Assembly: GCF_000455345.1 (NCBI RefSeq)
Contig: NZ_HG315690.1
Location: 1,315,742-1,379,741 of the forward strand
Reading direction: 5' to 3'
Length of the DNA: 64,000 nucleotides
From: Halopiger goleimassiliensis
GTDB lineage: Archaea; Halobacteriota; Halobacteria; Halobacteriales; Natrialbaceae
Part shown: positions 50,235 through 53,435 of the stretch, one piece after another
Position numbering within the stretch: position 1 is the stretch's first letter
How the letters are laid out: each line of letters opens with the position of its first letter
Program-made: the position numbers and the translations under genes
The notes under the pieces: generated by a model
Databases searched by the model: none
Seen by the model: the letters and a program-made list of their open reading frames with translations, nothing else
What the model was told of the DNA's origin: nothing

Positions 50235-51683
50235 GTGACCACGCTGGTCGTCTGTCTCGACCGGACCGACGACGTCGGGCGCAAGACCGGACTCCGGTCG
50301 CCCATCGTCGGCTGGGAGGCAGTCCGAGCGCTCGTGACGGACATCGGCCTGGCGGATCCGGAAGACTCCGGGGTCAACACCCTCCTCGAGGGGCTTCGCG
50401 TGGCCCAGGACCTGCGCGACGACGACGAAGAAGCCGTCGTCGCCGTCGTCTCCGGGGACCGCGAGTCGATGGTCTCGGCGGACAGAGCCGTCGCCCGCCA
50501 GCTCGACGAACTCATCGCGGAACACGAGCCGGACTCGGCGATCGTCGTCATCGACAGCGCCGAGGACGAGCGGCTCGTGCCGGTCGTCGAGAGCCGCGTC
50601 CGCGTCGACTCGGTCGACCGGGTCGTCGTCCGCCAGGCCCGGGACATCGAGTCGACCTACTACCTGCTGAAGCAGTTTCTCGCCGACGAGGAACTCCGAC
50701 AGACCGTACTCGTCCCGATCGGGTTGACGCTTCTGGTCTTCCCGATGCTGGCGACGGTCGTCGGGCCGGCCGAGGGAGCGGCCGCGATCACGACCGTCAT
50801 CGGCCTGTTCCTGCTGTACAAGGGCTTCAGCGTCGACGAGATCATGACCGGCGTCGCCCACCAGGCCCGCGAGGCACTGTACTCCGGACAGGTGTCGGTC
50901 GTCACCTACGTCGTCGCCGCCGGGCTGACGTTCGTCGGCCTGTTCGCCGGCGCGCTCGGGATCTCCAGCCTCGAGAGCCAACCCGGCGTCGTCGTGCCGG
51001 CGACCCAGTTCGCGTTCGAGGCGGCCCCCTGGTTGGCCGGCGCTGCAGTGACCACAAGCGCCGGGCGACTCCTCGACGAGGTCATCGGCGATGACGCGAT
51101 CCGGAGTTCGTACCTCAACCTCCCCTTTCTCCTGCTCGCCGTCGGCCTCGTCGTTCGGGGGTTCTCCGGCTACTTCCTCGCACAGCAAGGCGTCCTCGAT
51201 CCGATCGACATTCCGCCGATCGAACACGGCGTCATCTCCATCGAATCGTTCCAGATCACGGCTGGCGAGCGACTGGCGCTGTACGTCGCCAGCGCGCTCG
51301 TCGTCAGCCTCGTCGGTGCCCGCGTCGCGTCGTACTTCAGCGCGAGCGGGGACGACGCACCCGAAACTGATGGCTCGAGCCCGGACGACGACGGCCCCGG
51401 CGTCGCGAGCGAGGTGACCGACGGCGGCGCGGCGGCCGAGAGTGACGGACCCGACGCCGAAGTCGAGACGTACGCCGATCCGACTGCCGAGGCCGAGCCC
51501 GACGCCGAAGTCGAGACGTACGCCGATCCGACTGCCGAGGCCGAGCCCGACGCCGATCCGACTGCCGAGGCCGAGCCCGACGCCGAGCCCGAACGACCAC
51601 AGCCCTCGGCCGCTGCCGAGGACGGCACCGTCAGCACGCACGGCGAGGACCGCGAGCAGGACTCCGACGTCCCGCCCCGGTAG
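50235..51683 (+). CDS. DUF373-family membrane protein with acidic repeat tail
   Basis: 482 residues, GTG start (TTTTATCG box at 50203-50210, 25-32 bp ahead). N-terminal soluble domain (about 1-140; TLVVCLDRTDDVGRKTGLRS, VVAVVSGDRESMVSADRAVA) followed by about six transmembrane helices (about 155-360; DUF373 signature DIESTYYLLKQFLADEELRQ). The last 110 residues are Asp/Glu/Ala repeats. Widespread archaeal family of unknown function; a cytosolic NAD or second messenger sensor has been suggested only by fold. Divergent from the Tat lyase. Confidence 0.88.
   Translation: MTTLVVCLDRTDDVGRKTGLRSPIVGWEAVRALVTDIGLADPEDSGVNTLLEGLRVAQDLRDDDEEAVVAVVSGDRESMVSADRAVARQLDELIAEHEPDSAIVVIDSAEDERLVPVVESRVRVDSVDRVVVRQARDIESTYYLLKQFLADEELRQTVLVPIGLTLLVFPMLATVVGPAEGAAAITTVIGLFLLYKGFSVDEIMTGVAHQAREALYSGQVSVVTYVVAAGLTFVGLFAGALGISSLESQPGVVVPATQFAFEAAPWLAGAAVTTSAGRLLDEVIGDDAIRSSYLNLPFLLLAVGLVVRGFSGYFLAQQGVLDPIDIPPIEHGVISIESFQITAGERLALYVASALVVSLVGARVASYFSASGDDAPETDGSSPDDDGPGVASEVTDGGAAAESDGPDAEVETYADPTAEAEPDAEVETYADPTAEAEPDADPTAEAEPDAEPERPQPSAAAEDGTVSTHGEDREQDSDVPPR
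51461..51589 (+). repeat. Coding tandem repeat, 16-residue unit PDAEVETYADPTAEAE
   Basis: The unit occurs twice in full (48 bp each, DNA nearly identical), then a shortened 10-residue copy and a PDAEPE end. Near-identical DNA suggests recent slippage expansion in the DUF373 tail. Confidence 0.75.
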
Positions 51684-51732: not shown

Positions 51733-52458
51733 ATGAGCGACGCTGACGGCGCGTGGGTGAGCCTCTTTTCCGGCGGCAAGGACTCCTCGTGGGCGCTGTA
51801 CCGGGCCCTCGAGACGGGAAAGGACGTCCGACGGCTCGTCACCGTCCACCCGGGCGAGGACTCGTACATGTATCACGTCCCCGCGACTGACCTCGCGGGG
51901 CTTGCCGCCGAGAGCATCGGCATCGACCTGCTCGAGGTCGATCCGGGGGACTTGGCGGCCGACGACGCCACCGACTCTGGGGAACAGGGCGACGACGAAC
52001 TCGAGCCGCTCGAGGCCGCACTCGCGGAGTTAGGTCGTGACCTCCAGGGCGGCATCGCCGGCGTGACGGCCGGTGCCGTCGAGAGCGAGTACCAGACCAG
52101 TCGCATCCAGGGGATGTGCGACCGCCTCGACTGCGAACTGTTCGCCCCGCTGTGGCAGGAAGATCCCCGGGAGTTGGCCGACGCGATGCTCGAGGCCGGC
52201 TTCGAGATCGAGATCATCCAGGTCGCGGCTCGCGGCCTCGACGAGTCCTGGCTCGGCCGGACGCTCGACCGCGAGGCCATCCGTGACCTCGAGTCGCTCA
52301 ACGAGGAGTACGGCGTCCACCTTCTGGGAGAGGGTGGCGAGTTCGAGACCCTGGTCGTGGACGGTCCGCACATGGACCGCCGGATCGACCTCGAGTACGA
52401 GCACGAGTGGGACGCGACGCGCGGGCAGTTGCGGATCACGGACGCCCGACTCGAGTAG
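51733..52458 (+). CDS. dph6: Diphthine-ammonia ligase (Dph6)
   Basis: Last step of diphthamide synthesis on elongation factor aEF-2: ATP-dependent amidation of diphthine. 241 residues, an ATP-pyrophosphatase fold with PP-loop VSLFSGGKDSSWALYRAL near residue 9, followed by GIAGVTAGAVESEYQTSRIQ and the C-terminal GVHLLGEGGEFETLVVDGPH typical of Dph6. An acidic insert (about 75-95) is a haloarchaeal expansion. Followed by the inverted-repeat element 52483-53143. Confidence 0.93.
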   Translation: MSDADGAWVSLFSGGKDSSWALYRALETGKDVRRLVTVHPGEDSYMYHVPATDLAGLAAESIGIDLLEVDPGDLAADDATDSGEQGDDELEPLEAALAELGRDLQGGIAGVTAGAVESEYQTSRIQGMCDRLDCELFAPLWQEDPRELADAMLEAGFEIEIIQVAARGLDESWLGRTLDREAIRDLESLNEEYGVHLLGEGGEFETLVVDGPHMDRRIDLEYEHEWDATRGQLRITDARLE

Positions 52459-52560
52459 GCGTACGGGGAAGGGGTCAGATAAGTACCGGGTGTGGAGTTA
52501 TCGCAGAGCGATTGTGGATAGCGACTGACCGAGTATCGGAAACTGAGTCGAGAACACGGT

Positions 52561-52675
52561 GAAAGCCCCCGGCCGTCTCGAGTCGGGGGCCTCGCTGCGC
52601 GCTTCGCTCACTTCGTTCGCTCCAGTGCTTACGTCGTCCACCTTCCTCGAGACGGCCGGCCCCTTTCAGTCCCAC
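52561..52675 (-). repeat. Structured element B (GTGGGACTGAAAG family, minus orientation)
   Basis: On the minus strand: GTGGGACTGAAAG, GGGC, stem CGGCCGTCTCGAG, a roughly 60-nt loop, stem CTCGAGACGGCCG, GGGG, CTTTC. Same design as element A at 15372-15430 but with different stem sequence and longer loop. Confidence 0.7.
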
Positions 52676-52894
52676 CCACGTCCTCACCCTCCCCAGCCGG
52701 CTCTCTCACTCCGTTCGCTCGCCCCTCGCGACGCAGCGAGCCGTCCTCGCATCTGCTCACGGCTCACTTCCTTCGCCGTTCGCGTTCCGAGGTGCTCCCG
52801 TTGGTCGCACCTCGCTTTGCTCGGACGGCTCACCAGCGCGCCAGGGCCGGGAGCGCGGAGCCGGGCGACCCGGGGAAGGGGAGGCGTCTCTCCT

Positions 52895-53057
52895 GGTGGA
52901 CTGAAAGGGCGAGTCGTGCGTGGCGGCGCAGCCGCCACGTTTTCGGTTGTCGGCGAAGCCGACAACCCATGTCGCGTTCATATAGTCGCCTCAGCGACCC
53001 CTATCCGCGCTTGCGCGGATATGTCGCTGAGCGACCGTGACAGCGACGAGGGCTTTC
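52895..53057 (+). repeat. Structured element C (GTGGACTGAAAG family) with four internal hairpins
   Basis: Begins GGTGGACTGAAAGGGC and ends GGGCTTTC. Inside: TGGCGGC-GCA-GCCGCCA (about 52921-52937), GGTTGTCGGC-GAA-GCCGACAACC (about 52945-52967), TATCCGCGC/GCGCGGATA (about 53002-53021) and GTCGCTGAGCGAC (about 53023-53035). No gene. Confidence 0.7.
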
Positions 53058-53435
53058 GAGGTGTTCGATTCCCCCCGTGAGCCACTGCAGTCGGACGAAG
53101 AAATCCCCACCTCGAGTATGGCGCGATAACTCCACACAGGTACGTAACGACACCTCGAGCGAGCGATCGTCTCCTCGAGTCGAAGTCACAACGGATAAGT
53201 CCGTTCACGATCGTTTGCCACATATGATCCGCGTCGCTCGGTCGACGGTCGTCCGTGGCGTGAGCGACGCGTGCGCTCGTTTTCCGAAACGTAAACGAGT
53301 CTGAGTGCGCTCGTGGCGGGAGTGGCACCCCCGTCCCGGGCGCGGTTCGGCTCGCCGCGTTCGATCGACGATTACACTACGATCGCTGCCGGTCGACCGG
53401 ACGATCGACACTGCGACCACGCACCCACACCACCC

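Follow-up and report, generated by a model that had tools for sequence, protein, structure and literature searches.

The stretch between positions 52483 and 53143 of a 64,000-nucleotide window from Halopiger goleimassiliensis is one copy of a seven-copy repeat carrying two inverted members of an interspersed haloarchaeal hairpin family. "The window" here means the whole stretch of DNA that was analysed. An earlier note on this DNA had drawn attention to the terminal inverted repeat of the element, but the main finding is the hairpin modules that it encloses, and that note overlooked the conserved unit, two hairpin modules paired in inverted orientation, which most of the haloarchaea sampled have in common. 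A covariance model of one of the two module types, type I, matches 125 of 145 sampled haloarchaeal genomes at E values up to 1e-3, and this folded element, which undergoes compensatory evolution in place, is apparently undescribed. If the modules act as RNA they would represent a new class-wide archaeal RNA, and if they act as single-stranded DNA they would be an archaeal counterpart of the bacterial REPINs, far more elaborate in fold. In both cases it becomes testable why palindromic repeats persist at fixed places despite the turnover of their sequence.

The element in the window (52483-53143, assigned to neither strand) is delimited by its inverted repeat and by its further copies in the genome, and consists of a terminal repeat, a type I module, a linker, a type II module and a second terminal repeat. 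The left terminal repeat is located at 52490-52504 on the plus strand and the right one at 53123-53137 on the minus strand; the arms match over 15 perfect base pairs with 618 nt between them and can be extended outward by GTACC (52483-52487) on the left and GGTAC (53139-53143) on the right. No longer perfect inverted repeat with an arm spacing of 100 nt or more exists in the 977-bp spacer, for which 300 dinucleotide shuffles gave a maximum of 12. The two genes flanking the spacer (51733-52458, and then from 53313 on) carry Pfam domains of diphthamide synthase (PF01902) and DHDPS (PF00701, dapA-type), and a purpose-made codon-composition caller, which was also used around the modules elsewhere, places no gene between them. 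The earlier claim that the element has no ORF holds in the sense that no likely gene is present, although mechanical ORFs of up to 173 aa are found inside it. The whole 673 nt folds better than shuffled sequence on both strands, with z-scores of -11.2 (minus) and -10.1 (plus) from 20 shuffles each. The inverted repeat with its possible extension and the stable folds described in the earlier note are confirmed, and two hairpin modules, type I and type II, lie inside in inverted orientation. Haloarchaeal spacers are GC-rich and prone to hairpins, and the type I module of the window taken alone is only moderately stable as RNA (z -1.97, with 8 of 200 shuffles at least as good). That the element is merely such a GC-rich spacer with chance hairpins is nevertheless scarcely credible, as it is contradicted by the family copies, by the covariation described below, by the matches in 125 of 145 genomes and by an inverted repeat longer than in any shuffle.

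Six further copies in the same genome align with the window copy over the terminal repeat and the modules and along much of the linker. The copies measure about 550-690 bp between their outer ends and lie at unrelated places in the genome. Compared with its own genome, the whole stretch of the window element gives 52 matches with 40 scored candidates, most of them partial, and 25 with 13. The earlier note had suggested a search for copies with the same termini, and here the answer depends on the form of the terminus. The exact window terminus is single-copy in its own genome, occurring at the window locus only, because the ends of the window copy have diverged from the other copies while still matching each other. 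With one mismatch it gave a lone match in 7 of 40 relatives and the backwards control gave two; as a means of finding copies the exact terminus was accordingly dropped in favour of the family form. The consensus terminus, with up to two mismatches, occurs at 14 places in the genome, of which 12 are ends of the seven copies and two are unpaired, and its backwards control occurs at none in the same genome. By this search both termini are found in five of the copies and one terminus in the remaining two. At the outer ends of some copies the palindrome continues further outward. In one copy (L031, G000 C1:2904205-2904803) the type I hairpin has been cleanly lost, with the frame ends joined as in the scars of other species.

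The claim that the element is transposable is supported in part by seven copies with related termini at unrelated places, and is weakened by the outer ends, at which no direct repeat indicative of target duplication was visible by eye in the seven copies. Such a duplication is often, although not always, found in MITEs. The terminal inverted repeats of a MITE are shared with a transposon, and terminal repeats are present at the seven copies of the compound. A purely selfish, non-autonomous MITE- or REPIN-like element, whose folded ends would be read by a transposase and whose old copies would be under no selection, is rather unlikely as an account of the modules. The dispersal of the copies, the seven-copy compound with its terminal repeats, the inverted pair architecture, the occurrence of modules in haloarchaeal plasmid records and the syntenic spacers that have no recognisable module all favour it, whereas the compensatory evolution in place at syntenic spacers and the unseen target duplication speak against it. 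The terminal inverted repeat would be part of a younger two-module compound that multiplied in the Halopiger goleimassiliensis genome. The alternative that the earlier note had named, a conserved promoter or terminator zone, was not found: 125 genomes have the DHDPS gene, and in all 29 relatives whose loci were compared for the upstream gene, diphthamide synthase was not found within 1.5 kb upstream of DHDPS. Since gene order is not conserved at the window locus, a comparison with empty sites is impossible there and was made at a second spacer.

BLAST matches in other haloarchaea cluster on positions 52561-52677 of the window, which is the type I module (minus strand as the inferred folding strand; 131.6 bits with the covariance model, with covariation and mismatch bias as further evidence). 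The modules have fixed ends, GAAAGCCC...CCCCTTTCA(G/T)TCCCACCC, and occur either singly or as an inverted pair in one fixed orientation with a stretch of about 45 nt or longer in between. A motif search collected 158 modules, of which 49 lie within about 90 nt of a partner and 16 have a more distant one, whereas for 93 no partner lies within 1 kb. The type I fold is one long hairpin of about 110 nt, formed by the strand opposite to the type I frame. It comprises a GAAAG/CTTTC base, a conserved GGG/GGG internal loop and a main stem of 13-14 bp, followed by a short internal loop, further short helices and an apical loop, and its distal loop is conserved. In the window the 14-nt left arm of the main stem (52569-52582) pairs with the right arm (52646-52659), as seen both from the inverted repeat and from the RNA fold; no strand is assigned to the arms. 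The letters of this stem vary freely while the pairing is retained, and the non-complementary loops and tags, including the conserved linear tag GGGYGGGACTGAAAG at the module end, are invariant or nearly so across many genera. The window pair consists of two different kinds, type I on the left and type II on the right, which have a related frame but a different distal part. The type II module (52894-53057), recognised by the alignment of copies, has the plus strand as its inferred folding strand, and the linker between the two (52678-52893, no strand assigned) contains short hairpins and aligns with most other copies in the genome. Close pairs, of which 20 distinct ones were compared, all have complementary bases at the first two positions beyond the two frames, with all four Watson-Crick types at each position, and the pairing becomes weaker beyond about eight positions. 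This would allow a close pair to fold into a four-way structure, or else its ends are matched in the manner of transposon ends.

Two short-loop hairpins (GCA and GAA, 52917-52973, plus strand) are inserted in the window type II module, as seen from the alignment of copies; they are missing from L030-L034, L038 and L039, and longer inserts are found at the same place in L035 and L036. Two neighbouring hairpins with three-base loops of the GNA type (GTGGCGGC.. and GGTCGGC..) form a repeat of their own that is found several times, often as an insertion within modules, as at 52917-52973 of the window, at about 1500-1560 of L074 and inside modules of L081, L082 and L093. At another locus (L013:1351-1510) several tandem units of about 38 nt starting with CCTGAAAGCCCCCG directly precede a type I module and look like an amplification of its first end.

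At least 20 matches to the type I covariance model were found in 33 of the 145 genomes and at least 23, the cap per genome, in 24 of them. The Halopiger goleimassiliensis genome, scored with a higher cap, has 27, some of which are short remnants or cross-matches to type II modules, and the window copy scores best. In a phylum-wide sample 28 of 196 genomes match at E values up to 1e-5, all belonging to the order of the window, and 148 have no match. Haloarcula, Halorussus, Natrinema, Halosimplex, Natronococcus, Haladaptatus and Haloparvum are named as hosts among the matches listed. Modules were further matched in 35 of 72,556 plasmid records, all haloarchaeal by name, and in one viral contig, and in none of 50,697 phage records.

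The pairing of the stem is supported by covariation. An alignment of type I modules, for which 85 rows were chosen for stem pairing and 64 of these were aligned, has 91.9% of its cells paired, a figure inflated by that choice of rows, and 23 of its 33 pairs change on both sides. Its covariation score of 0.474 compares with 0.145 for shuffles, none of 500 being as high, and with at most 0.113 for slid partners. When all 158 modules were scored before any choice by pairing, each at whichever of a few offsets suited it best, 134 reached 10 or more Watson-Crick pairs out of 14. The mismatches in the stem are biased towards one strand: in the 197 modules out of 215 that form 10 or more of the 13 pairs, which comprise 182 distinct stems, the inferred folding strand has 68 G.U against 16 A.C mismatches, alongside 95 others and 2005 Watson-Crick cells (p 8.5e-9). 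In a previous count, made on a partly shared set, the figures were 60 and 8. Because of this excess of G.U it is probably one strand that acts folded, while the bias does not separate RNA from single-stranded DNA. Covarying pairs in a conserved fold are a mark of structured non-coding RNA and are present here; folded single-stranded DNA would produce the same covariation. Folding energies calculated for DNA give the inferred strand no advantage, the other strand having the better z-score in two of three modules.

A structured non-coding RNA, transcribed from the inferred strand and acting either in trans or within transcripts that cross the module, is a possibility of some weight, although we think it probably does not apply. 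It would account for G.U standing far above A.C on one strand, for one inner pair that is U-G in 19 of the 64 aligned rows, for conserved internal loops that are purine-rich in the same alignment and for RNA folds of six modules (z -1.6 to -4.3), most of which beat shuffles. The genomic context is less favourable to it. No AT-rich or TATA-like box was found just upstream of the modules, and it is the other side that is AT-richer. The 5'-side gene points away in 62 of 115 single modules, so that read-through from that gene cannot make the RNA, and in 77 of the 115 the 3'-side gene is co-directional with the folding strand, the median gap being 106 nt. Of these single modules 16 lie in convergent spacers, as do 2 of 42 pairs, and three more modules lie inside called genes; all these counts rest on the codon-composition caller and include orthologous copies. 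The absence of an upstream box together with this context disfavours an independent RNA gene and suggests that the modules sit upstream of the promoters of neighbouring genes. Rfam gave no match on the window modules nor in 10 loci at E values up to 1, which like the repeated loss of modules described below speaks against a structured RNA. The notion of a folded RNA locus put forward for this stretch has gained strong covariation and lacks an AT-rich or TATA-like box before the modules. Thirty neighbouring proteins read by eye have no common theme; many look like housekeeping enzymes, some are unknown and one of the 30 looks TnpB-like.

Evolution in place was followed in 13 genomes of one chosen genus and, at one spacer, in 22 further genomes. 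Most of the matches fetched from the 13 genomes fall into about ten syntenic groups with flanks that are mostly 77-93% identical. Across 52 comparisons of 12 stem positions each, 410 cells are the same, 173 are compensated, 6 are half-changed via G.U and 35 are broken; these comparisons are not independent, use modules pre-filtered for pairing and may compare different modules of one group. Clean single-step compensations are seen in L290/L296 and in L294/L295. At one conserved single-module spacer, for which the set from 11 species was collected by motif and not by stem pairing, 10 of 22 pairs have two-sided changes and the covariation score is 0.262; shuffles gave 0.077, with none of 500 reaching the observed value, and slid partners did not exceed 0.066. 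An intact copy, L334, was missed by the search pattern that fed alignment A3. Among the 22 further genomes, the 18 for which both flanks were retrieved were classed at this spacer from sequences read by eye, which leaves aside G087, G096, G100 and G103. Five have intact modules (G098, G099, G101, G102, G107), five have short scars in which the hairpin is gone and the frame ends are left (G086, G088, G089, G104, G106), three have decayed ends (G008, G082, G092) and five have no clear trace (G081, G083, G084, G085, G095). The hairpin at this spacer is lost repeatedly, after which the ends decay, and the fold is kept where the hairpin stays; having been lost in several species, the hairpin is not essential there.

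Precise losses of this kind (L339, L340, L343, L344 and L350 at the conserved spacer, and L031 in the compound of the window's own genome), together with stems that remain matched while their letters change, could also result from neutral palindrome dynamics, in which, without any function being involved, an arm is rewritten from its partner by template switching in replication and the hairpin is removed by slippage. This is improbable, as the copying of arms alone explains neither the non-complementary loops and tags that stay invariant or nearly so over many genera nor the strand-specific mismatch bias. At the spacer of L290, two species (L289 and L343) have MITE-like palindromic inserts of about 80-90 bp with related but different sequences.

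It is proposed, with somewhat more confidence than doubt, that the modules are a structure-maintained interspersed repeat resembling REPINs, with one folded strand, recognition of fold and tag by a protein, rare mobility and long retention. One strand would act in its folded form, which may be RNA or else single-stranded DNA that becomes exposed during replication or transcription, and a putative protein would recognise the fold plus the linear tag, which would leave the letters of the stem free and constrain the loops and the tag. Modules would spread by rare mobility, like bacterial REPINs, and then persist for long periods in spacers near gene starts. Their fold might be retained because it benefits the host, with action in cis near promoters as the likeliest case, or through hairpin-templated repair. 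The latter could match the arms without selection and hence weighs against the proposed structure-maintained repeat, although the conserved non-complementary loops and the wobble bias argue that templated repair alone is not enough.

A further reading of the module, which we regard as unlikely, is that of a quadruplex-duplex switch in which four G-runs would stack, with the covarying hairpin as the third loop, and which would act in cis near promoters across the class. The folding strand has four G-runs in the arrangement GGG-Y-GGG-ACTGAAA-GGGG-(long hairpin)-GGGG, and the haloarchaeal cytoplasm contains molar potassium, which would stabilise a G-quadruplex. The lengths of the runs tend to shift together, most modules having 3,3,4,4 or longer and 23 of 30 type II modules having 2,2,3,3; the short set is combined with type I loops in 2 of 164 modules and the longer set with type II loops in 7 of 30. 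At the single-module spacer the first, second and fourth runs do not vary among the 11 species, and the third contains three or more G in each of them. Against this, descent in two lineages could account for the two sets of run lengths, minimum lengths were a requirement of the search pattern, and mixed run lengths occur in at least 14 of 221 modules (among the 30 commonest combinations).

The closest architectural relatives are bacterial. The REP, REPIN and BIME sequences associated with RAYT transposases are described as dispersed, mostly intergenic hairpins with an end tag that occur singly or as inverted pairs (PMC3733652; see also PMC3116915), and the transposase is reported to read folded single-stranded DNA (PMC3733652). 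The modules likewise are dispersed hairpins with an end tag found as singles and inverted pairs. They differ in that REPs have a GTAG or CGTC tag and a palindrome of 20-40 bp where the modules have their own tag and a hairpin of about 110 nt, and in that the modules are archaeal, with a more elaborate fold and strong compensation in place. Closer in host are the transposase-free SMR elements of Haloquadratum walsbyi, which are reported to be about 80-110 bp long with inverted ends unrelated to known transposons, lie mostly inside other mobile elements and commonly have copies more than 95% alike within one type; the numerous SMR-A is about 110 bp and has inverted ends and no target duplication (PMC3119063). 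Single modules fit the SMR in length and inverted ends, compared by description only. PATE elements, also from Haloquadratum, are described as having near-terminal IS605-like palindromes and no terminal inverted repeats, which the window compound does have (PMC3119063).

Haloarchaeal omega-RNAs (sotRNAs) of IS200/IS605 elements are reported to be structured, multi-copy and located at the 3' end of tnpB (PMC12558985). The modules differ in having a TnpB-like neighbour in only one of the 30 cases read by eye and in their lack of Rfam matches, an exclusion that presumes RF02656 and RF02657 among the families searched. The repetitive quadruplex sequences of Methanomicrobiaceae are dispersed intergenic archaeal repeats with G-runs and a hairpin; they belong to another clade and have short loops between the G-runs, a covarying stem is not reported in the part of the paper at hand, and quadruplex motifs are stated there to be under-represented in many Halobacteria genomes (PMC8044849). 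A literature search that included core sequence strings, with subscription papers and preprints mostly outside its scope, returned no description of the module family. An earlier description may exist, the nearest kinds being the REPINs in architecture and the SMR in size, host and inverted ends, again by description.

Elsewhere in the window, the ORF at 50235-51683 has in its C-terminal part (about 51448-51600) a short acidic tandem repeat with a unit like TAEAEPDAEVETYADP.
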